Source of the DNA: a virus
Direction: 5' to 3' (one strand)
IMG/VR virus record: IMGVR_UViG_3300004457_000002
Span: 1-43,970 of that record
Length of the DNA: 43,970 nucleotides
Position 1 is the first letter of the stretch; every line of letters begins with the position of its first letter. The notes beneath the pieces were generated by a model. That model worked only from the letters and a program-made list of their open reading frames with translations. It did not search any database and had not been told where the DNA came from. Shown here in pieces: positions 8,701 through 34,121 of this stretch. The translations under genes and the position numbers were made by a program.

Positions 8701-9508
8701 GAGTGATTGCACCGTTTTTAATTTTGTTACTATCGATAGTTTGGCTTGCTAGGTCTGCATTCACCAAAGTCCCGTCTAGTACGTAAGCCGAAATGATTTT
8801 ACTATTCCCGATTGTAGGGTTTGGATAAGTTCCGGTAAGATCACCACCAGCCGCCCCGGTTGGCGCGCCCCCTGAACCCGAAACCGACTTACTCTTGATG
8901 TATGCTTTATCGGAAAATTTTGCAGCAACTACAAGCGCCTCACCAACTGTTATGCTATCCATGCTTTCCGGAGTAATGAACATCGAATCTGACTTTGCCC
9001 GAAATCCTATGTTATTCCAACGCATTGAAGCACCTGTAAGAGTATCAGCGCTTATCGAGATAGTTTGTCCACCCTTGAGCAGTGACAACGTGCTAGACCC
9101 TGAACGGCTTAATTGAACCCTGTTAACCCACCCGCTACCCCATGATGTAGTATTGAAGTTAAGACCGCCAAGTCCCGAAAGAGTAAGCGAGTTTGTAGCA
9201 GCGGCAACCGTCACGCTACCAATTGGCAATTGTGACATAAGGCCACCGGGAATGTATTGAAGCGAATCCGACCCCGAAACGTAGCCCAAAACGTAGCGGT
9301 TAGTAGGGGATACCCTTGTGACAGGCCGAGGCATAATGAAAGCCCGCATCAAATCCGCTGAAACCTTGCGCCAATTACCGCCCGTGTTGACCGTTGGGAA
9401 CGGAGTTGTAGGAGTAACAGAGGATGCACTAGGCAGTGTATTAAAATTGATTTGCCCAATCAATGAAAGAGGCAAAAGGAAAGCCAAAAAAAGGATGATA
9501 TTTTTCAT
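5738..9508 (-). CDS. Tail spike/fibre with pectate-lyase-like beta-helix and signal peptide
   Basis: 1256 residues, the largest protein here. Residues 1-19 form a clear Sec signal (MKNIILFLAFLLPLSLIGQ), unusual for a virion protein. Fibre-type repeats follow, with the motif TGDVTASGTGSVTATI near 530-545. Residues about 640-950 open with INIVNLGAVGDGTTDNLTVI, the hallmark of the Pectate_lyase_3 right-handed beta-helix used by tail spikes to bind or cleave polysaccharide. The C-terminal 250 residues carry PGSLFVNSDGTNPALYVKRA and a terminal beta-domain, typical of trimerising fibre tips. Expected to be the receptor-binding or capsule-degrading protein. Catalytic residues cannot be assigned. Confidence 0.8.
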   Translation of the reverse strand: MKNIILFLAFLLPLSLIGQINFNTLPSASSVTPTTPFPTVNTGGNWRKVSADLMRAFIMPRPVTRVSPTNRYVLGYVSGSDSLQYIPGGLMSQLPIGSVTVAAATNSLTLSGLGGLNFNTTSWGSGWVNRVQLSRSGSSTLSLLKGGQTISISADTLTGASMRWNNIGFRAKSDSMFITPESMDSITVGEALVVAAKFSDKAYIKSKSVSGSGGAPTGAAGGDLTGTYPNPTIGNSKIISAYVLDGTLVNADLASQTIDSNKIKNGAITPIKINKTGATGGQVLKYNSTTGLVGWARDSSLFRTDGTIPSEIARTITLGSGASMTLYTYSFLKGIGISSSVSGATANLTNNALSTNTVNAFNNGSINRNGRSLTLKNEGILNFTSSQIDGYLLGSVVLPGIRKYTSSILGIDSTRNWQSGGFNVKFDSLSSGGRSHFGGFIKGYIQNLGSAGQGYSINQAFTVQTLFTGNPPPKFDWFKIDNLDTDTTSNRISFYNNKYVFPNSAPGSGNKMIEWQSGVPVFVSSPSGGSGITALTGDVTASGTGSVTATISANAVTNAKIASNTIDSTRLAPRSVNTSELVDGSATAVKIASNAVDSTKAANLSPNDLAQTGASTNDVLTWTGSKYAPRPASGGSGTTDIINIVNLGAVGDGTTDNLTVIQNGLNTYGAIYIPNGNFKVSGTLAIPVGGKILGSGANSIISISAGDTVVRMRLNSSIENVTIDGTDAAGQVGVSWKGLNVVGVTVLNCYITDMIQGIRVDSVGYGPYLSSKIRGNSIKSCVTGIYMGQRAEYVQLLDNLCEQNTTGMYIRAGNCSIVGGSTNSNSIGISIDGGANNAHTSITGLSSNHNSSKSLEIDSISLGLLITGCNFFAAPNLTINESNSIQFVNNNIECTTDHVVTNSTELIYTNNIWFNSTSDPTLNSGSKAQLIGNRVKGTQAVTTISAPGTSGDFPLNVVMPSTGNRGWNITREGVSSSSGFFGLWSQTSTPGIFSPFIYSRSSSNASPHLAFIAQNDASGDTGSQPSISFQAGDGYSNLTRPMISFDAQLNDIAMRINVGKNVTIGHSTTRQDSSRLSVRGLSNSATSYSFSAFSLDNTARFRVANNGVITTTSTIYRNTANTVGEFIGTGSPEGVTTANPGSLFVNSDGTNPALYVKRAGTGNTNWNEAFIGLRGSATLDFGSTAAGAVTDLTITVTGAADGDVVSLGVPNASVTATGRYFAWVSAANTVTVRFSPTILVGSEDPASGTFKVTVTK

Positions 9509-18641: not shown

Positions 18642-18672
18642 CAAAGATAGCACAATATTTCGATTCTCCAAA
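18642..18672 (-). promoter_or_regulatory. Consensus Bacteroidota promoter for ParB-like unit
   Basis: On the minus strand TTTG (18669-18672), 19 nt, then TATCTTTG (18642-18649), a perfect match to TTTG-N19-TAnnTTTG. It lies directly after the previous terminator and 12 nt before the first leader hairpin. Confidence 0.8.
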
Positions 18673-20989: not shown

Positions 20990-21478
20990 TCAATCAACAA
21001 TATTCAATCTTGCAAATTCCCCAAATAACTCAATAGCTGCTTTGTTGTAAGCTTTTGCAGCTTCTTTAGGGCATTTAAAGTATCCAAGGTGCCTTACCTT
21101 GTAATTGAGCTTTATTTCAGCCTTATACCCGTTCACCCGCTTAACTGCACACACACCTTTATAGCCTGTTTTGTTTCGCTTGTTGAGTTTTTGGTTTCTT
21201 GAGTTCTCAGCGACCGTGCAAATACGAAGGTTTTCTTTCCGGTTATCGAATGTGTTTCCATTAATATGGTCAACAACATAACCTTTTTTACCTTCAAATC
21301 GCAAGACAAACCAATGTAACCTAGTTTTAGTATATCGCTTTTTGCCGTCAATTGTTTTTGAGTTGTTGCGACCTATATAGTTATTTTTCCCATAAAACCA
21401 CTTTAAGGCAGCAACCCGGTCAAAGTCTTCGTCATCCAAAATGACTTTCAATCCCTTATTGATTTCTAATTCTCGCAT
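20990..21478 (-). CDS. HNH endonuclease with AP2 DNA-binding domain
   Basis: 162 residues from the ATG at 21478. The HNH nuclease part carries VVDHINGNTFDNRKENLRIC near residues 65-84, with the catalytic His in DHINGN and Asn residues in DNRKENLR. The C-terminal half (GYKGVCAVKRVNGYKAEI to the final LFGEFARLN) is an AP2-type beta-sheet DNA-binding domain. This is the layout of free-standing phage homing endonucleases. It lies between the MuF-type and gp10-like genes, slightly separating an otherwise tight late operon, as expected for a selfish insertion. Confidence 0.9.
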   Translation of the reverse strand: MRELEINKGLKVILDDEDFDRVAALKWFYGKNNYIGRNNSKTIDGKKRYTKTRLHWFVLRFEGKKGYVVDHINGNTFDNRKENLRICTVAENSRNQKLNKRNKTGYKGVCAVKRVNGYKAEIKLNYKVRHLGYFKCPKEAAKAYNKAAIELFGEFARLNIVD

Positions 21479-21528
21479 GTTTAGAATTTTCAATAAAGGT
21501 ACATATATGACGGCAAAAATAAAAGCAT

Positions 21529-22413
21529 TCAGCCTAAAATGTCTACAGATAAGCCCCTCTTTTTTAGTAGCTCTACCATTTGCTCACTCAGCCAAGACAA
21601 ATGATCTCTACACCCGTACCCGCCTAATGTTTCCTTTACATCGGTTCCGGGAATCTTACCCTCCCACACGTCACCATTCCAGCTTTCAATCACTGCTTTT
21701 GAAAATATCCGGCCTTTGCGTTTCTTACACCATGTTCGACTAGTCTTAATTTCCGTACCCGCAAAAAGAGCAAAGCCCAACCCCAAATCAGTAGCAACCG
21801 TATTTTGCACAGTCCTATCGAACATTTGGAAACTATCTTGTGCAACCCGTTCAAAGTTCTTGACAACCGTCCCCGTCGTTTGGGCGTTGCTAACAAAATC
21901 CGCTTTAAATGTCTTGGTGAACGTCTTCAAATCCATACCGCCGCCGATGCCCGACATTAGCCGCTGTCCTACCGATTCAGCTACACTTTGCACATTGAAC
22001 GCGGTTTGCAGGAATCCACCGGGAACGGGTTTTTGTTTATCAACATCCCAACCCCAACGGAGCAACACCAAACGCTTGGCGGCATCATACGCGCTTTCCT
22101 GGCGCTTTTCCACTTGGTTGAAGTACGAAACATTAATCCCAAATAAGGATAGGAAACGGTTTGCAATCCACTTGCCAAAGTCGAATAGTTTATTTTGAAG
22201 CCAACCCGAAAAAGACAGCACACCGGATTGCACCCGGCGCACGTTGGCGGCTTTGAAAACTAATCTACCCTCTACTGTGTCCAACCCATTCACTAGTTCC
22301 GCAATGAATCCCCAGCTATCCGACTCGATACCACGCAAACGGGTTGTGGCCTGTGCTTCTGCATCGGTAATCAACTTTTCCCGGCGCTTTATCAAGTCTT
22401 CAAATTTGGCCAT
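21529..22413 (-). CDS. Phage head morphogenesis protein, MuF/SPP1 gp7-like
   Basis: 294 residues. The C-terminal part carries TSRTWCKKRKGRIFSKAVIE and later GGYGCRDHLSWL, resembling the conserved Cys/His pattern (C-x2-R/K-x-G, then GC-R-H) of the phage Mu F minor head family. The N-terminal 200 residues are helical with an amphipathic stretch (LFDFGKWIANRFLSLFG). Such proteins bind the portal and may be ejected with DNA. Normally it follows the portal directly; here the five-gene csf/cysH cluster separates them. Confidence 0.8.
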   Translation of the reverse strand: MAKFEDLIKRREKLITDAEAQATTRLRGIESDSWGFIAELVNGLDTVEGRLVFKAANVRRVQSGVLSFSGWLQNKLFDFGKWIANRFLSLFGINVSYFNQVEKRQESAYDAAKRLVLLRWGWDVDKQKPVPGGFLQTAFNVQSVAESVGQRLMSGIGGGMDLKTFTKTFKADFVSNAQTTGTVVKNFERVAQDSFQMFDRTVQNTVATDLGLGFALFAGTEIKTSRTWCKKRKGRIFSKAVIESWNGDVWEGKIPGTDVKETLGGYGCRDHLSWLSEQMVELLKKRGLSVDILG

Positions 22414-22415
22414 TG

Positions 22416-23105
22416 TTAAGCATATTGTAGGTCAAAGATACTAACTTTTGGTATATGGCATCGAAATTGATGCTTTGGCTCCCAGTACGAAGGGCGGATA
22501 CCATACAGAGTATCACCGTCAGCAGATGGTACAGCCCGCATAAGTTTGCCGTTATTATCTTCCACGCTCCAATCTGAATGCCATTGCTCAACATACCAAG
22601 ATAACACCGACCCGCAACCCTGGTCGTACTTTTTCCCTAAGTGGGTCAAAAAAGGCAGGAATAGTTTGATTTGCTTTTCATCACCAACCAAGTACCAAGA
22701 TACGTAAGGCGAAGAAATAGCGTAATCAGTTTGGAACATGTTTTTATACTCCCCCCGATTAGTGTACACATTTCCTCGTTTCCCGTCAAAATCTACATAC
22801 TTGGTAGCTAGTCCAGTCCTGAACCGCTTTGCGTAGTTGTGTTTTTCAGGCACCGCCATTTCAGGCCACTGGGCAAATGAACAGGCATAAAACCATTCCC
22901 GGCCTGATTCAAGGTTATACCGTTCAAGTGGTAAAACCTTCCCAGACCACTCAGGGACATTACTTTTGCGGGCTTCGCTTTTGTGTTGCGCTCCAAATAA
23001 ATCACGGATGAAAGTATGGTACAAGACACCATCAAGTGGCAAAAAACCGTCTGTGATTACCGGGGTTTGCAGGATCGCGGTTATTTTCAAGGGTTGGAAA
23101 TTCAT
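22416..23105 (-). CDS. csf3: Csf3-like (Cas5 family) type IV CRISPR protein
   Basis: 229 residues. The opening FQPLKITAILQTPVITDGFL with PLDGVLYHTFI is the N-terminal strand and helix pattern of Csf3, the Cas5-family subunit of type IV complexes, which in known systems caps the crRNA 5' handle. The C-terminal part has a Gly-rich turn (KKYDQGCGSVLSWYVEQW) as in RAMP proteins. It is the last gene of the module, overlaps cysH by 4 nt (ATGA), and ends 2 nt before the MuF gene. The call combines the N-terminal pattern, length and neighbours; a profile search should confirm it. Confidence 0.75.
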   Translation of the reverse strand: MNFQPLKITAILQTPVITDGFLPLDGVLYHTFIRDLFGAQHKSEARKSNVPEWSGKVLPLERYNLESGREWFYACSFAQWPEMAVPEKHNYAKRFRTGLATKYVDFDGKRGNVYTNRGEYKNMFQTDYAISSPYVSWYLVGDEKQIKLFLPFLTHLGKKYDQGCGSVLSWYVEQWHSDWSVEDNNGKLMRAVPSADGDTLYGIRPSYWEPKHQFRCHIPKVSIFDLQYA

Positions 23106-23779
23106 AACAAATCGTTGAGGTCTGAATAGATAGCGTTTAATTCATTCCATGCGGTAGGATTAAATTGTCGAAGATGCTGGAAGGATTCAAAAGCAAAACC
23201 GTTGTGCGGCAATCCGGTTGTAGTACGTGCGCTTGTTCCCATATCCTTGTATTTTTTCAGCAATGGAATATTATTAATGTATGTGTAGGCAATCACATCT
23301 TTTTCACCCCACCAGGCAATTGGACAAATCCTAATGCGTTCTGTTCTCTTTTGCTTATGTAACATGCCATGCGTTTTCAATGTCATTGCCCGACCTTTAC
23401 TTTCCTCAGCTCGCAAGCCCACAAAAAAAGAATCACTATTGTCTGACTCTAGTGCGTCACGTTGTGTATTTCCTCTAGTTTCCTTTGCATTATCTCGATG
23501 TAGGTAAATTTCTTGCAGGTTGATGTCTGACCACTGCGCTAGTATTTCATCATAATTGCCCAACAACCTAGTTTCTGGATGTGTTACGAACTTAACCGGA
23601 ATAGTTGGTGCAAATTGGCGGACTAGATGAAGCATCACTGAGCTATCCTTGCCGAACGAACAAGCGACATAGGGACTTTTCACCTTAGATAGACTTTCTT
23701 GGATGAATCCTAAAGTTCGGCGGACTAGTGCCCGGTGTTGTGGCATAGTAGCAAATAGTAGTGCTTCTTCTCGTCTCAT
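23102..23779 (-). CDS. cysH: CysH-like PP-loop ATPase of the type IV-B module
   Basis: 225 residues. The PP-loop SFGKDSS (41-47) follows the strand SPYVAC; GLRAEES is at 121-127; ICPIAWWGEKDVIAY (151-165) is the C-terminal element of PAPS-reductase-family adenine nucleotide alpha-hydrolases. The ECGxH cysteine motif of true sulfate-reducing CysH is absent, so assimilatory PAPS reduction is unlikely. CysH-like genes are a known companion of type IV-B csf operons, and it sits here between csf2 and csf3 with 4-nt overlaps on both sides. Its substrate is unknown; AMP transfer or thiolation-type chemistry would fit the fold. Confidence 0.85.
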   Translation of the reverse strand: MRREEALLFATMPQHRALVRRTLGFIQESLSKVKSPYVACSFGKDSSVMLHLVRQFAPTIPVKFVTHPETRLLGNYDEILAQWSDINLQEIYLHRDNAKETRGNTQRDALESDNSDSFFVGLRAEESKGRAMTLKTHGMLHKQKRTERIRICPIAWWGEKDVIAYTYINNIPLLKKYKDMGTSARTTTGLPHNGFAFESFQHLRQFNPTAWNELNAIYSDLNDLL

Positions 23780-24672
23780 ATCATCTTTAGGAATGCCCGA
23801 ACAGCAGGTTTTGAATCCTTGATCATTTTCGCGTACAGGCTTTCGGTTGTTTCGTTCGTAATTTCAAGCACTTCGCCTTGTTTTGATACGTCGTGCCATT
23901 TCATTTCCAAAAATTCCAGTTGGCCAAACCCCACGCTTTCTTTTCCTCCTACCGTTTGCACGGCTTCCCATCGCTTCATAAAAGACAGGAAGAAATCATA
24001 CTCTAGTTCGGTCACATCCCTTAACACCACCTTCCAGTAGAACGGCGTTCCAGCGGCTAAGGTTTCGGTGTAGTAGATCATTTGCGAGTTCTCAAACTTG
24101 GTATCTTCGTTCTTGTCGATATACTGCTGAAAATGCGGGTCTTTTGAGTTTTCCTTTCGGGTGTACATTTCCTGCTGAATGTAGGTGTACACGCTTTTCA
24201 ATCCGGTTTCGGCGAAAAACTCTAAGATTTCATCAGGAAGGATATGGTGCGTTTCAAGGGCAATAGGAATGAGCGGGTTAATGTTCATCTTACCCGGAAT
24301 AATCGCGTTACCGTACGCAGTACCAAACAAAGCTACAACAGGTAGATTCTCATACAGTTTTTTCCAGGCGTCTACATCGCCTTCAGTGTTTCCTGCTGTC
24401 AACGCCCCGCCTGAAAACAACATCTGGAAGACATGTAGCGGTACTTTGTGTGGCGTTTCCTCTTCACCCAACATATGCAACATATGCTCGCTTGCTACAT
24501 CTCTAAGCTTGCCCCGCACACCATTCCCTGACACAACAGGAATTTCAAAAGCCCTTGCCCCTTGAATCACCTTGGTGCGGCGAAACATAGCCACGTTCCC
24601 ATTAAGCTCGCCACCGTTGTGGCTAATTTGGGTTTTGGCTTGTACAATGCCCTCCATTATTAGCGTTCTCAT
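23776..24672 (-). CDS. csf2: Csf2-like (Cas7 family) backbone protein
   Basis: 298 residues. Near the N-terminus ISHNGGELNGNVAMFRRTKV is followed by FEIPVVSGNGVRGKLRDVAS (42-61), a hallmark of Csf2: a conserved His-Asn-Gly segment and the SGN-x-(I/V)RG-x-LRD helix start of Cas7-type RAMPs. A C-terminal glycine-rich segment (GGKESVGFGQLEFLEM) matches the RAMP G-loop. In type IV complexes Csf2 polymerises along the guide RNA. Overlaps both neighbours by 4 nt. The best-supported member of the cluster. Confidence 0.85.
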   Translation of the reverse strand: MRTLIMEGIVQAKTQISHNGGELNGNVAMFRRTKVIQGARAFEIPVVSGNGVRGKLRDVASEHMLHMLGEEETPHKVPLHVFQMLFSGGALTAGNTEGDVDAWKKLYENLPVVALFGTAYGNAIIPGKMNINPLIPIALETHHILPDEILEFFAETGLKSVYTYIQQEMYTRKENSKDPHFQQYIDKNEDTKFENSQMIYYTETLAAGTPFYWKVVLRDVTELEYDFFLSFMKRWEAVQTVGGKESVGFGQLEFLEMKWHDVSKQGEVLEITNETTESLYAKMIKDSKPAVRAFLKMI

Positions 24673-25028
24673 ACAATAGCGTTTTTGGCGGCCTCATATG
24701 CTTCCTTCTTTTCGTTATTAAGGGCGCGGGTGAGTAATACAAGATAGGCGCATTCGGAACGAAGTAGGTCTAATAATATGTGGTCGTCGCCTGCTGATAG
24801 CACAGCAAGTACACTTTCTTCGTGGCGTTGTTGCCAGTCCATTGGGAGTAGTTGTTTCAGCTTCCCAAAGAATTGGGCTAGGTTTTCGGCGCATGCGGCG
24901 GACTTAACGAAGTTCTCGAACATTCCCCAGGCATCACCCTTGTATTTTTTTTTGAAGTCGCTATCCACACACTGCCATAGAGGGAATAGCAAATCTTTCG
25001 CTACGTTTTGTTTTACGTGGTTTTCCAT
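24669..25028 (-). CDS. cas11: Small-subunit (Cas11-like) protein of the type IV module
   Basis: 119 residues, predicted all-helical with long amphipathic helices (FPLWQCVDSDFKKKYKGD, AQFFGKLKQLLPMDW, LLRSECAYLVLLTRALNN). This is the size and architecture of the Cas11 small subunit, encoded between csf1 and csf2 in type IV-B loci. There is no diagnostic motif, so the call depends on gene order. Its stop overlaps the csf2 start (ATGA). Confidence 0.6.
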   Translation of the reverse strand: MENHVKQNVAKDLLFPLWQCVDSDFKKKYKGDAWGMFENFVKSAACAENLAQFFGKLKQLLPMDWQQRHEESVLAVLSAGDDHILLDLLRSECAYLVLLTRALNNEKKEAYEAAKNAIV

Positions 25029-25029
25029 A

Positions 25030-25680
25030 TTATTTTGGTTGTGAATACATTAGCCAAGCGGCAAAATCAAACATCGGCGTTTTTCGGGCTGACTTGATCT
25101 TGTTTTCAAGACTTTGCCAGTTGTCCAACCCTGCTACTAAGATACGATTTGCGGCGTAATTTCCGGTAATTACTTCGGCTTGCGTGAAGCCCAACGAAAG
25201 TAGTTGCATCATCACCCCGTGGATGTGATTAAATAACGGGAGGTTTGGTTCAACAAAAGTATCATCAAGCTGCCAAAGACCGGGGCGATGCTTGAAAAAT
25301 ACGTGCTTTTGTCCGCTATCGGTTAGGCAGATAATTTCTGGGGAATCTTGAATGATTGACACAATTCGCTGTTTATCTGCCTTGGTGCAGCACAACCATT
25401 CATCATTCCAAACGATATGCGAATAGGTACGGAATTTTTGCGGCTTGTCTCGGTTCTGCTTTTCTTGGATCAATTTGGAATCCTCGACAAAACAAAAAGC
25501 GGCCTCGTTTGAGATGATTGTACCGGGGTGCAAGCAGTCATGGTTTGTGAATGTATCCTTTACCCACTTTTTGAAAGGCATTCCGTTTGACTCTTTACCT
25601 GTAAATCGGCAAACGCCTTTTGTGGTCCCGACTTGAAACCCTTGCCCGGCTATCTGATAGACTCTTTCACATGGGTGCAT
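25030..25680 (-). CDS. csf1: Csf1-like large subunit
   Basis: 216 residues. Family Csf1 proteins begin with a zinc-finger segment of the form C-x2-C, Gly, a hydrophobic F-x2-(S/T)F-T and then C-x2-C. Here residues 24-67 retain the outline: C24 RFTGK, the block FKKWVKDTFTNHDC (36-49) and C63 in AAFCFVED, but the second Cys of each pair is missing, so zinc may not be bound. The C-terminal helix (ENKIKSARKTPMFDFAAWLM) is as expected. It begins 9 nt after the portal stop and is the first gene of the module. Confidence 0.65.
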   Translation of the reverse strand: MHPCERVYQIAGQGFQVGTTKGVCRFTGKESNGMPFKKWVKDTFTNHDCLHPGTIISNEAAFCFVEDSKLIQEKQNRDKPQKFRTYSHIVWNDEWLCCTKADKQRIVSIIQDSPEIICLTDSGQKHVFFKHRPGLWQLDDTFVEPNLPLFNHIHGVMMQLLSLGFTQAEVITGNYAANRILVAGLDNWQSLENKIKSARKTPMFDFAAWLMYSQPK

Positions 25681-25689
25681 ACGTGTAAT

Positions 25690-27480
25690 TTACTGAAATA
25701 CTGGGAATGAATTTACAGAATTTTCTTGAGGAATTTCAGCAATTAAGATTTGTATTTTTTCATTAATCAGCTCTTTTTGACGAACTAATGGATATAATGA
25801 AAATAATCCACTTTCGCCTATCTCGCTCATTATTGCATGTTGTATTTCCTGCCAGTTCTCCCAGGCCACCCGCTTAGGATCGGTTTTGGCACGGGTTGAA
25901 AGGATCATGGCAAGTTCTTCCGGCGACTTGTCGGAGAACGGTTTGAGCGCATCAAAGGCCAATTGGTCATTCACAAAAGACGGGTTATCCTTATGCTTTT
26001 TCTTTAGCAGCGCATCTGAAATAGCTTTTTGGACTGAATACGGCGCACCTGCTTGTTTTGCCGCTGCAAGGTCTGCGATCAATTCGCTTTCCTTCTTCAT
26101 TGCAAAGTCCATCGGGAATGTGACGTGATAGTTGTCGCCATCCCTGAAAGCACCGTAGTACTGCATTGCAACCCGGTAGGCCAAAGATTCGACTTGCCCG
26201 ACCTTCAAGGCGATTGGATACAATTTGTTGTATATTCTGCTGTAATTGATCGTTATTTCGGTTGCCGTCTTAATGCTGACCGCCTCGGTTTGCTCCTGGC
26301 TGTAAATTACATACGTCAAAATTGTCGATAGCTTGTCGATCTGCTCTTGTTGGTTGGTTAGTACCTCCATTGGCAGACTCATATAGTGCGCCACCTGCGC
26401 TAAGTCCACAAACTCATCCTTGCTATCTGGAAACTTAAACGTTACAGCGTCTTGTTCGCCGCCGTGAACGATCTTTCCAGTACCGCCACACGTTGCGCAA
26501 GGTCGCTTGTGATCCGCTGCGTAATACCCGCCAATACAGGCCAATCCTTCGCCATCAACCGCCTCGCAAGCCTTAACGTATTGGAAGAGTTTCGGGTACA
26601 TGTGGAGCATACGGTTAAGATCGTAGCTAGACTTCAAGCCCATGAGGTCAAGCAAATGCCCCCTTGCTGGTTCATACAGCAATTCACACGGCGCGTTCAC
26701 ATCCAATTCAGATTGGTAAGCCCCTAATCGGATTGCAGGGGTTTCCAGTGTACCGGTGACGAATATCCAGATCAGGTAGTCATCAACCCCGTCAATGGTG
26801 TAGGATTGATCTTCATAACGCGGTGCGGTATCATCACACATGTACTGAGCAAATGCAGCATACCCCGGCGCATACAAATAATAATGATTGACTTGTGAGA
26901 TCTCTTGCCCGCCTTGAATTTGGGTTGATTGATATTCCTCTTCTGAGAAAACAAGGTACTTCAAGTTCCCGTTCACGTCGTACTTCCAATCAACGGCGCG
27001 TTCGGATTCGACCAACACAGGATAGAATGTGTACCCGGCTGCGTTGGGTAACTCTTTGCGCTCAAAGATCAACCAGCTATTTGGGTCTTGTTCATTCGCC
27101 ATTTTAACGGCGTTGAAAGAAAAATCCTGGATTGATTGTCCGGCGTAGTATTGGCCTAAGCTTTGTTCAACTTCCTGAAAGCGGGTTGTATCCTGGAACA
27201 TGCCTACTCGGTGAACACCGTCCGTGCGTTGCAGCTCTTCAACATAGGCGAGTGCTGGACTGATTGCGGCGGCGGTGATTGGGTTGGTAAGCCTTAATCG
27301 TTGTTTGGCCTGTTCTGGCGTTTCCCGTAGTCGTTGCGTGCTGATATAATCCCCTTGTTCTGCTGCGGTCTTTGCAAAAACCATTTCGGCAAATTCATAA
27401 GCTTCTGTGGCTTCGGCTTGGTACGGGCTGCACCCGCCTTGAATGACGTTGGAAAGTATGGTAAGGATTTGCTCTTGCTC
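25690..27480 (-). CDS. Portal protein
   Basis: 596 residues from the ATG at 27480 (the frame extends upstream through a half-terminator and is unlikely to be translated there). Position after the terminase, length, and an alpha/beta body with a long helical C-terminal crown (MAILSTRAKTDPKRVAWENW region) fit a dodecameric portal. Near residue 330, CATCGGTGKIVHGG is a DnaJ-like CxxCxGxG zinc ribbon half, which occurs in one family of Bacteroidota phage portals. Promoter-like sequence with TAACTTGC lies about 25 nt upstream of the ATG. Confidence 0.75.
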   Translation of the reverse strand, partial: EQEQILTILSNVIQGGCSPYQAEATEAYEFAEMVFAKTAAEQGDYISTQRLRETPEQAKQRLRLTNPITAAAISPALAYVEELQRTDGVHRVGMFQDTTRFQEVEQSLGQYYAGQSIQDFSFNAVKMANEQDPNSWLIFERKELPNAAGYTFYPVLVESERAVDWKYDVNGNLKYLVFSEEEYQSTQIQGGQEISQVNHYYLYAPGYAAFAQYMCDDTAPRYEDQSYTIDGVDDYLIWIFVTGTLETPAIRLGAYQSELDVNAPCELLYEPARGHLLDLMGLKSSYDLNRMLHMYPKLFQYVKACEAVDGEGLACIGGYYAADHKRPCATCGGTGKIVHGGEQDAVTFKFPDSKDEFVDLAQVAHYMSLPMEVLTNQQEQIDKLSTILTYVIYSQEQTEAVSIKTATEITINYSRIYNKLYPIALKVGQVESLAYRVAMQYYGAFRDGDNYHVTFPMDFAMKKESELIADLAAAKQAGAPYSVQKAISDALLKKKHKDNPSFVNDQLAFDALKPFSDKSPEELAMILSTRAKTDPKRVAWENWQEIQHAIMSEIGESGLFSLYPLVRQKELINEKIQILIAEIPQENSVNSFPVFQ

Positions 27481-27500
27481 CATTGCGCTAGTTTGGTGCA

Positions 27501-27538
27501 AGTTACGGAAAAGATGGGAAATAAAAAAGCCCCGAAAG
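27501..27538 (-). promoter_or_regulatory. Promoter region of portal with truncated terminator (25-bp repeat copy 1)
   Basis: Positions 27509-27533 repeat, base for base, the 25 nt at 31209-31233. On the minus strand it reads as the 3' arm and T-tract of a terminator (GGGGCTTTTTT) continuing into ATTTCCCATCTTTT, then TAACTTGC as the -7 element. The 5' arm of the terminator is missing in this copy. About 220 bp upstream of the portal ATG hold no convincing gene. Confidence 0.5.
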
Positions 27539-27703
27539 TGCGAACATGAGTTGTAGTACATGGGGTATGCGGGTGATCGGGTTGTTTAGGCGCATTAAAA
27601 TAGTGTATGCGGAGAGGATGGAGACATGAATCCATAATCAACATGATTTTGATCTACAATAACATCCAATTCCTTTATTTCTGTTACTTCCAAATCAACA
27701 AAA

Positions 27704-31412: not shown

Positions 31413-31463
31413 ACAAAGTACGGGGTTTTTAAGTTACTAAAACATACCCTAAAAACGGTATTT
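31413..31463 (-). promoter_or_regulatory. Element-type promoter, site C
   Basis: In gene sense AATACCGTTTTTAGGGTATG (31443-31462), 21 nt, then GTACTTTG (31414-31421). It overlaps the terminase stop codon. Differs from site B in one base of the 20-mer. Confidence 0.65.
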
Positions 31464-32790
31464 AAATCATCTTGGCAAACTTCTTGATCGGCAACTCAAA
31501 CACCATGCGCATCATTAAGCTTTCTGCACGGTCGGGAGAAAATCCTAACAACTGCTTCATTGCTTCTTTTGGTGTTATAGTTATCTTCCCGTCCTTCTCG
31601 GTATGGTGCTTTCGGATGTTTTCCAATTCTAGTATATCCTGTTCTCTTCCATCGGTTGACTTAATGTAAATACCGTTCTCGCTGATCTTCTTTGCCAGCA
31701 TGTAGAAACACTGCGCTTTGAGGTGCAAGTAGTTGATTTTGTGCTTACCATCCTGAATTGGAGCAGCACCGTTATTGAATGGTTGCGCCGTCTTGAGATA
31801 CCCACGCAGGAACGCCCCTACCCCATCCGCATCATAGGCAATGTTTCTTTGTGGCACGCCGTACTCCAAAGCCTTTTCCCTTAGCATCAGTTCCACTTCG
31901 TCCGCGTCGCACTTGTCAACTACATACGTCGCAATTACCACCCATCCATGCCAAACGCGAATAACAAAGCGGTCAGAGCCGTGCAGGGCAATGTCGGCGG
32001 TGATGTACTTTTGACCTGTTTCCTGTATGAAGGAATTGGTGTACATGTCCTCCAGCGCTTTCTCTGGAAACAAAATTGAATCGTCACTTACCCCTTCGGC
32101 CAAATATAGCGCCGTGAATACCGAAAGCGGCAAATCCTGCCTTGCCTGTTCAATTTCCTTTTCATCCAAGATTCCAGCTCGTACTGCGTCGTATGCTGTG
32201 ACTCGGAAGGCAGCGTATTCGGCTGGGTCGGTTTTGGCTTTGTTGGTGAGCTTATGCCCCCAATTGCTTTGTCCGGTGTAGTTGCCGATAAATTTGACCG
32301 GGGCTTTGGTGAACGTGACAGTAGAACGGAGTGCAAACCAAGCCGCCTGTTTGGCGCGGGTGAACTCATCGAAAACAACGCCGTAAACATCCTCGCCATA
32401 AAGGTTGTCCGGCGTATCGGCTGACTTGAAAGATATGATAGTGCCTTTTGGGGTTGTGATTGCTAAATCTGAGTTATTGAATTTATAACCAGGTGCATTA
32501 AGGATGTGGCGTTTCATACGGGCAAAGGCGATCTTTGCTTGTGAGTACACCGGGGCAACCCACCAATAGTTTTGGCCGGGCTTTACATTGTCTGTGTACC
32601 ATACCGGATCAAGGCCATGAGCCAACCGGAAAAGCCAATAAATGTGTGAGAATGTTTTGCCCGTCTTTGTGGATGCCTCGACAACCGAAAACCGTTGCGG
32701 GCAATTCAGGAAAGCCTTTTGGTAGTCTGCAAGCTTTGGGGGCTTAATGGTAATTTTAATTCGGCTGTTATTCCTCGTTACTACTGTCAT
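31462..32790 (-). CDS. terL: Terminase large subunit
   Basis: 442 residues from the ATG at 32790. The ATPase half has a Walker A variant EASTKTGKT near residues 39-47 and Walker B VYGVVFDEF near 135-143. The nuclease half shows the RNase H-like acidic residues in ITADIALHGSDR, IAYDADGVGAFL and a final SPDRAESLMM. These are the conserved elements of terminase large subunits that translocate DNA into the procapsid. Overlaps the small subunit by 23 nt. Confidence 0.92.
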   Translation of the reverse strand: MTVVTRNNSRIKITIKPPKLADYQKAFLNCPQRFSVVEASTKTGKTFSHIYWLFRLAHGLDPVWYTDNVKPGQNYWWVAPVYSQAKIAFARMKRHILNAPGYKFNNSDLAITTPKGTIISFKSADTPDNLYGEDVYGVVFDEFTRAKQAAWFALRSTVTFTKAPVKFIGNYTGQSNWGHKLTNKAKTDPAEYAAFRVTAYDAVRAGILDEKEIEQARQDLPLSVFTALYLAEGVSDDSILFPEKALEDMYTNSFIQETGQKYITADIALHGSDRFVIRVWHGWVVIATYVVDKCDADEVELMLREKALEYGVPQRNIAYDADGVGAFLRGYLKTAQPFNNGAAPIQDGKHKINYLHLKAQCFYMLAKKISENGIYIKSTDGREQDILELENIRKHHTEKDGKITITPKEAMKQLLGFSPDRAESLMMRMVFELPIKKFAKMI

Positions 32791-33106
32791 CAAATGATAT
32801 TTCAGCCTCGGTATAAGTAACCTCCTGTTTTTCGCTTTGCCCTAGTCTATTCTTTCCTAACCAAATCAGCATCGCCTTATCGCCCTCTTTAGCTATGTCG
32901 TATTGTACCTTTCTCAATATTGCATCGCCATTTGCTCTTTTAGTAGCTCGATAAGCAGCAAAACCCATTCCTTTTTCTTTCTCACACGCCCGGTATAACG
33001 TATCTGGATGTACACCTAAAACAGCAGCTACCTCCGTACCTTCGCATCCTGCTTCAAGGTAGTCATCTACAATAGTCCAACTAATTGAAGTTCCTTTTGC
33101 TGCCAT
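32768..33106 (-). CDS. terS: Terminase small subunit
   Basis: 112 residues. An N-terminal helix-turn-helix (IVDDYLEAGCEGTEVAAVLG, then HPDTLYRACEKEKG) is followed by a charged helix and an acidic tail (EAEISFDDSSNEE). This is the small-terminase layout, which recognises packaging DNA. It directly precedes terL and has a perfect consensus promoter, so packaging and structural genes can be transcribed from here. Confidence 0.8.
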   Translation of the reverse strand: MAAKGTSISWTIVDDYLEAGCEGTEVAAVLGVHPDTLYRACEKEKGMGFAAYRATKRANGDAILRKVQYDIAKEGDKAMLIWLGKNRLGQSEKQEVTYTEAEISFDDSSNEE

Positions 33107-33124: not shown

Positions 33125-33156
33125 CAAATTTACGCGAAAAAAGTGATAAAATCAAA
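33125..33156 (-). promoter_or_regulatory. Consensus promoter of the terminase operon
   Basis: On the minus strand TTTG (33153-33156), 20 nt, TAAATTTG (33125-33132): perfect match to the Bacteroidota promoter consensus. The TSS is expected near 33118, about 12 nt before the terS ATG. Likely main promoter for packaging genes. Confidence 0.8.
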
Positions 33157-33396: not shown

Positions 33397-33415
33397 TTGC
33401 GGATGATAAATTAAA
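33397..33415. repeat. 19-bp direct repeat flanking RNA ligase gene, copy 1
   Basis: TTGCGGATGATAAATTAAA occurs here, at the RNA ligase stop, and again at 34133-34151, just before its start. The similarity continues imperfectly to a following ATG in both copies. Confidence 0.75.
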
Positions 33416-34121
33416 TTAATCCTGATTCATTCCAAACATCTTGCCCTAAATACTTGCCCGTCTCAAAATCAGGCCGAACATACTTTGCGAGAAAGTCAAC
33501 TTTCCCTTTGCGTTCGACTCGGTAAATTAAGCCCTCTGGTTTTTCAAGGCACTGCGCAGAATATGTAAATTTTGAGTCTTCTAAAATCCTCCACGCCTGA
33601 TCTATGTGAATTGCTCCACCCATAAACAACATCCTTGGGAAAGAAACACGATCAATCCCAATAAATCGACCAACTACTTCTTTGTAAGGCATTCGCTCCA
33701 TGCATCGCATTAGGTCAAACCAAATAACCGGATTGTTAGCATCTATTCGATATTTTAATCCATGTGCCATTAACATCAACTCGCCACAAAGTCGTTCACC
33801 GTCTTGAAGGGTTTCGACAAACAAATCTTGATTGTCTTTCACCCACTTTGCGAAAATGTGGTGCATCTCATGTGGTGATGTTTCCGCTAAATATCCCGGC
33901 CTGGTCAACGCGACAATTTGCCCATTGATTTTTGCCACCGCCACATTAGAACCGTCGAACTTTTCTTGAACAATGATAACGTCGTGCTTGTCGCGGGTTT
34001 TGACTGTGCAAATATCGTGTTGACCTTGTGGCACCGTGTGATCACCCTCGCCAACCTTTGAGCCGATCAGGTGCGGAATTGAACCGTATGCTTTTTGGCC
34101 TAGTGGCTTTTCTGGTTTCAT
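33411..34121 (-). CDS. ATP-dependent RNA ligase family protein
   Basis: 236 residues. The nucleotidyltransferase motif I is EKFDGSNV with the adenylated lysine at residue 54 (K-x-DG-x-N). Motif III-like and IV-like elements follow (IWFDLMR; PEGLIYRVERKGKVDFLAKY with motif V Lys). The N-terminal YGSIPHLIGSKVGEGDH is shared by RNA ligases of the Rnl2/DRB0094-like group. It probably joins or caps RNA 5'-phosphate ends, for example in repair of host-cleaved tRNA. It is bordered by 19-bp direct repeats, suggesting cassette insertion. ATGA overlap with the lipoprotein gene. Confidence 0.85.
   Translation of the reverse strand: MKPEKPLGQKAYGSIPHLIGSKVGEGDHTVPQGQHDICTVKTRDKHDVIIVQEKFDGSNVAVAKINGQIVALTRPGYLAETSPHEMHHIFAKWVKDNQDLFVETLQDGERLCGELMLMAHGLKYRIDANNPVIWFDLMRCMERMPYKEVVGRFIGIDRVSFPRMLFMGGAIHIDQAWRILEDSKFTYSAQCLEKPEGLIYRVERKGKVDFLAKYVRPDFETGKYLGQDVWNESGLI

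Follow-up and report, generated by a model that had tools for sequence, protein, structure and literature searches.

A complete, array-less type IV-B-like CRISPR effector module among the head genes of a likely Bacteroidota phage

The module and its genes

The stretch of DNA analysed here (the window) is the whole IMG/VR virus record IMGVR_UViG_3300004457_000002, of 43,970 bases, which may be incomplete. On its minus strand, at 22416-25680, lie five open reading frames (ORFs) which, as judged from profile matches and a structure model, almost certainly constitute a complete type IV-B effector set, a CRISPR array being absent. The ORFs were found where the original prediction had placed them, and its type IV-B-like assignment was confirmed by PADLOC matches of Csf1, Cas11, Csf2 and Csf3 and a Pfam match of the CysH-like protein; each component expected of type IV-B (csf2, csf3, csf1, cas11 and a PP-loop, cysH-like accessory) is thus present:

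25030..25680, minus strand: csf1, Cas8-like large subunit, 216 amino acids (aa); PADLOC Csf1_0_IV, 2.0e-12
24669..25028, minus strand: cas11, small subunit, 119 aa; PADLOC Cas11_1_IV, 6.7e-14
23776..24672, minus strand: csf2 (Cas7), 298 aa, RAMP fold; PADLOC Csf2_0_IV, 3.8e-60
23102..23779, minus strand: cysH-like PP-loop protein, 225 aa; Pfam PAPS_reduct, 4.8e-15, with SFGKDS and GLRAEES..R kept
22416..23105, minus strand: csf3 (Cas5), 229 aa; PADLOC Csf3_0_IV, 9.8e-45

Three of the four internal junctions (cas11/csf2, csf2/cysH and cysH/csf3) are 4-nucleotide (nt) overlaps and csf1 is separated from cas11 by 1 nt, so that the predicted series of five overlapping genes is correct for all junctions except the first. 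The module begins 9 nt past the stop of the portal gene (25690) and ends 2 nt ahead of the ATG of the next head gene (22413), both gaps agreeing with the prediction.

The prediction would have fallen had the 298-aa and 229-aa proteins lacked significant Cas7 and Cas5 profile matches or RAMP-like folds; the matches are highly significant, as listed. The sequence of the window Csf2 also matches PDB 7jhy, the type IV-B Csf2, at 8.1e-14, and the best PDB matches of its AlphaFold2 model (pLDDT 82.7) are type IV-A Csf2/Cas7 (2e-13), type IV-B 7jhy (5e-12) and type III Csm3, that is, Cas7 structures of types IV and III. Csf3 matches NCBIfam TIGR03116 at 6.7e-13, under the curated cutoff of that model. 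The zinc-finger cysteines of Csf1 are mostly gone, CRFTG standing in the window where several relatives have CxxCG. Two PHROGs annotated as "unknown function", phrog_22746 and phrog_34599, match the window Csf2 (1.3e-45) and Csf3 (6.5e-19).

The large subunit is Csf1 and not the Cas10-like HD protein of type IV-C, and the module includes no other subunit. The features of type IV-A (DinG helicase, cas6, array) are missing, as had been foreseen: no match to the DinG helicase (PF13307) or to cas6 (PF10040) was found across the whole, possibly incomplete, record, and no array-like repeat was detected in the window, either as an 18-nt repeat with <=2 mismatches at 40-95 nt spacing or among its direct repeats. 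These absences bear on the idea that the complex borrows its guides, loading CRISPR RNAs (crRNAs) made by the host and silencing rival phages or plasmids without cleavage in the manner of type IV-A. In type IV-A the crRNA is bound by subunits to which Csf2 and Csf3 are homologous, and use of crRNAs in trans has been suggested for type IV-B (PMC8175902); however, the window phage has no array, cas6 or DinG-type helicase, and in the type IV-B complex that has been studied the RNA was other than the co-expressed I-E crRNAs (PMC8175902). We consider borrowed guides distinctly improbable.

Insertion into the head-gene block

The module is flanked by two structural genes:

25690..27561, minus strand: portal gene, directly upstream of the module; PHROG 7376 portal, 2.8e-14
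21529..22413, minus strand: putative minor head gene, directly downstream, 294 aa; position conserved in relatives

The upstream gene is therefore the portal gene that had been predicted. Three relative contigs (G001, L008 and L010), compared by blastn of the window, are ~78-87% identical to it in DNA over most of the aligned genome and have portal proteins 88-89% identical to that of the window phage. From all three, the segment 22415..25836, comprising the module and the 3' end of the portal gene, is missing. The portal stop overlaps the start of the next gene (TAATG) in L008 and L010, and in G001/L009 a 97-aa ORF occupies the slot between portal and head gene; a distant relative with a 30% identical portal (L056) likewise has no module. 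Homologues of the 294-aa downstream protein, 90% and 60% identical, lie directly behind the portal, or behind one small gene, in relatives. Because the relatives have portal and next head gene adjacent, the module is, on this comparison, a clean 3.4-kb acquisition, and its predicted insertion into the structural operon is upheld.

The final ~50 residues of the portal protein are divergent in the window phage, the relatives agreeing among themselves there, and similarity resumes at 25837. This divergent end suggests that recombination probably brought the block in from a phage in which a related portal gene was already followed by the module. Base composition was considered as a sign of import and fails as such, the module genes having a GC content of 0.42-0.46 and the neighbouring head genes 0.47-0.49. 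The 97-aa ORF (11845-12138 of L009) occupies the same interval, so that cargo may be received there.

Probable expression with the packaging and head genes

The portal and head genes belong to the same block as the terminase, at the head of which lies a promoter-like site:

31462..32793, minus strand: terminase large subunit; PHROG 2 terminase, 2e-22
33125..33156, minus strand: Bacteroidota-type promoter-like site, TTTG-N17-21-TANNTTTG

The next promoter-like site on the minus strand is at 18642-18672, so none falls inside the module, and no terminator-like site was found on that strand between 22414 and 25690. Since the gene packing leaves no room for a promoter or terminator of its own, the module is most likely transcribed with the packaging and head genes, late in infection. 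It had been asserted that the module must be expressed with the late genes; the packing makes this a strong inference, for which "must" is too strong a word.

Occurrence and gene order in other viruses

Modules were sought in viral contigs by alignment-based scans. A single-protein scan with the window Csf2 yielded nothing, and the diversity of the first Csf2 alignment made it unsuitable for pattern scans. Modules were recovered on 87 distinct viral contigs, 79 of which carry all four core genes and 72 cysH nearby. Run against the genome collection, query A5 recovered just three, its patterns being one residue longer and the counts therefore not strictly comparable with the viral ones. Within the phylum of a Bacteroidetes metagenome-assembled genome (MAG), 4 of 395 genomes have a Csf2 match; in the MAG contig L047 the module stands upstream of terminase genes.

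L044 (IMG/VR 3300037826_000040) repeats the gene content and order of the window module, in the arrangement TerL-portal-[csf1 cas11 csf2 cysH csf3]-MuF-capsid, and its portal and csf1 overlap by 4 nt. The structural proteins of this phage are unrelated by blastp to those of the window phage, and its Csf2 is about 33% identical. In L018 the module lies between terminase and portal (TerL-[module]-portal). L097 and L103, the closest modules (45% and 43% identity over four concatenated proteins; Csf1 of L097 is 55% identical to that of the window), have it between the terminase and a portal-like gene, with conserved small genes alongside. Insertion into the head-gene block, as read from these contigs, thus recurs in unrelated phages (L044, L018); the suggested check for this insertion in related phages is negative for the close relatives, and the portal/MuF slot is occupied in the unrelated L044.

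These contigs also make it very unlikely that the module is a passenger without function for the phage, or an assembly chimera. Such a reading would agree with the finding of the module on a single contig of this phage lineage. Against it, all frames are open, the junctions are tight on both sides, and the 3' end of the portal gene was exchanged along with the module, which speaks against a chimera; moreover, the arrangement is repeated in an unrelated phage and the frames are conserved across many phages, as would not be expected of a useless passenger.

The position beside the portal could also mean that the RNP (ribonucleoprotein) or the enzyme is packaged among the head products, delivered with the DNA and active when the next infection begins. 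The slots in the window phage, L044, L018, L097 and L103 agree with such a virion cargo, to which we attach little probability: position is all that speaks for it, and in most of the remaining contigs 2-6 kb separate the module from a terminase or portal gene downstream of it. We know of no packaging signal. A packaging or head gene was recognised in the fetched stretch of 34 contigs, and in 32 it lies on the strand of the module, mostly 2-6 kb downstream; little weight attaches to this agreement of strand, as many phages are read in one direction.

The order csf1-cas11-csf2-cysH-csf3 was found in 18 of the 87 contigs, and cysH follows csf3 in 53. A quick tree of the concatenated proteins unites most contigs of the former order and places the window in a group with cysH mostly between csf2 and csf3; in the Csf2 tree the placement of the window protein has no starred support. 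Just before csf1, L018 has an exact 19-nt direct repeat (8876-8894 and 8952-8970, 76 nt apart), which was too little to be read as a mini-array and was found in no other fetched locus. Two csf3 copies per module occur in L019, L020 and L027, with a second PAPS-reductase-like gene upstream in the first two of these.

The CysH-like protein and its exchange for other enzymes

The PP-loop SxGKxS is invariant in all 21 aligned CysH homologues, in which no counterpart of the C-terminal catalytic cysteine of true CysH is apparent. Type IV-B CysH has been reported to lack this cysteine, and was proposed to act on RNA or on bound nucleic acid (PMC8175902).

Modules without cysH were found on 15 of the 87 contigs; four of these also lack csf3, and two (L154 and L161) end just past it. 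In all nine whose sequence runs beyond csf3 another enzyme gene is present, directly after csf3 except in L125, where it stands between csf2 and csf3:

L022, 10023-10709: replacement enzyme gene
L037, 7401-8123: replacement enzyme gene
L140, 9712-10428: replacement enzyme gene
L034, 11585-13126: replacement enzyme gene
L042, 11697-13238: replacement enzyme gene
L156, 7459-8781: replacement enzyme gene
L157, 10124-11467: replacement enzyme gene
L158, 9516-10955: replacement enzyme gene
L125, 4167-4649: replacement enzyme gene

Radical SAM proteins account for five of the nine; they have CxxxCxxC and match RimO/MiaB-type enzymes by profile (4e-9). Another three have in common a DSGA motif recalling tRNA-guanine transglycosylases (TGT) and are without a PDB match, and one is methyltransferase-like, with a weak match to the archaeal transferase PH0793 (0.005). 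A profile search found no radical SAM, TGT-like or methyltransferase-like gene among the cysH-bearing loci. The one-for-one replacement of CysH by other modifying enzymes lends new support to the proposal on CysH in PMC8175902.

This exchange also bears on the possibility that the Csf filament is an RNA sponge, which merely binds or titrates small RNAs of the host, crRNAs included, and so shields the phage, the enzyme being secondary. The Mycobacterium type IV-B complex is a Csf2/Cas11 filament on heterogeneous non-CRISPR RNAs, for which a sponge role was proposed (PMC7937560), and the lack of an array-like repeat and of cas6 in the window would suit it. A sponge leaves unexplained, however, that an enzyme gene is kept in 9 of 9 testable cysH-less modules and that the PP-loop is invariant in CysH. 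The retention of an enzyme in all nine favours an RNP working with a nucleic-acid-modifying enzyme over a passive sponge, which we regard as unlikely.

Proposed mechanism

The reading we put forward, which we hold to be evenly poised between right and wrong, is that the module is acquired, array-less type IV-B cargo whose RNP and modifying enzyme benefit the phage. In this scheme the module would have been acquired as cargo in the interval between portal and next head gene; a filament of Csf2 and Cas11 would assemble on short RNAs, by analogy with the Mycobacterium complex; the PP-loop protein would modify the RNA held in the filament, or nucleic acid bound by it, through ATP-dependent adenylation or related chemistry; and the modification would serve the phage against host defences or rival elements. 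The parts differ in strength. Natural insertion and shared transcription are very probable, the pairing of RNP and modifying enzyme is plausible at a little below even chances, and counter-defence or inter-element competition may or may not be the purpose with equal probability. More generally, we suggest tentatively that phage type IV-B-like complexes could be RNP platforms for exchangeable enzymes (PP-loop CysH, radical SAM, transglycosylase-like and methyltransferase-like proteins) that chemically modify nucleic acids, co-expressed with head genes.

Several points weigh against the proposed reading. A complex expressed late in infection would miss those defences that work at injection, unless it were packaged or struck superinfecting elements. 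Gene packing is the sole argument for shared transcription, and since a terminator-like site (31242-31229) lies between terminase and portal, the module may be out of reach of the terminase promoter. Two of the radical SAM contigs, L156 and L157, are apparently near-duplicates, which leaves fewer than nine independent cases; the profiles of the exclusivity test were seeded from the same loci on which they were tested; and, radical SAM apart, the replacement enzymes are identified from motifs or weak matches.

Comparison with known systems

The type IV-B system of Mycobacterium sp. JS623 (PDB 7jhy, plasmid-borne) has, like the window, csf1, cas11, csf2 and csf3 and no array, cas6 or dinG, and the ancillary cysH of the window is usual in type IV-B. 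The window differs from it in the location in a tailed-phage head block, in having cysH between csf2 and csf3, and in the degenerate CxxC of Csf1.

It had been thought that a phage-borne module in this position was undescribed. Carriage by phages as such is already on record: type IV systems of prophages and of some free phages figure in reviews (PMC8730458, PMC11656645), and IV-B with CysH has been reported from an archaeal virus (PMC10848311). That virus, Fuxivirus of Bathyarchaeia, resembles the window phage in a virus-borne IV-B, a CysH-like protein and the lack of adaptation genes, and differs in being archaeal, in a two-repeat mini-array, and in having its cas genes (1-5) apart from the terminase and portal genes (27 and 28). 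The full type IV-B gene set is also present in the Skermania phage SPI1, where its products are annotated as hypothetical proteins:

KR011061.1, 32609-36242 (L002): complete type IV-B module of SPI1

Its Orf40-44 are csf1-cas11-csf2-csf3-cysH homologues in one co-directed block, as in the window, but in an actinomycete phage, with cysH last and the module between tail genes and lysin. No report of the head-gene insertion or of the enzyme exchange was found in searchable open-access papers, subscription papers being outside the scope. The insertion into the head operon, its recurrence and the pattern of exchange between cysH and other enzymes therefore appear new.

The role of type IV-B systems, and the reason for their association with CysH, are poorly understood (PMC7937560, PMC8175902). 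With related sets in dozens of virus contigs, repeated head-gene insertion, a phage with an assigned host (SPI1) and the enzyme exchange, this function becomes easier to test, in terms of expression timing, of the RNA held by the complex and of the action of the enzyme on that RNA. If the RNP platform is real, the phage type IV-B-like complexes would direct where RNA or DNA is chemically modified, in place of cleaving the nucleic acid or simply binding to it.

The host and other genes of the phage

Terminase, portal and DnaB-type helicase genes in the record place the type IV-B module on a mobile element. The two-part, promoter-like motif TTTG-N17-21-TANNTTTG occurs at 6 sites in the window against 1.86 expected, a number reached by 1 of 100 shuffles, and five of the six are just upstream of ORFs. 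In the window the -7 element by itself is at chance level, only the two-part motif exceeding shuffles, and a sigma-70 promoter scan gave no more sites than in shuffles. Terminase relatives occur in Flavobacterium and Cellulophaga phages, and a 58%-identical terminase segment was found in a genome from the same phylum as a Bacteroidetes MAG. On account of the two-part promoter sites and the terminase relatives, the host is likely a member of the Bacteroidota, in support of the earlier assignment.

The MuF label was not adopted for the 294-aa protein downstream of the module, which gave no Pfam match, PF04233 included, no hhalign support and a poor AlphaFold2 model; its naming as a head protein follows from synteny only. 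The counterpart in L044 matches PF04233 at 1.5e-10. Just 3' of the putative minor head gene lies an HNH endonuclease gene (20990-21493), absent there in the blastn comparison with relatives, and at 33411-34121 the window encodes a protein with an RNA ligase domain (PF09414, 1.6e-14).

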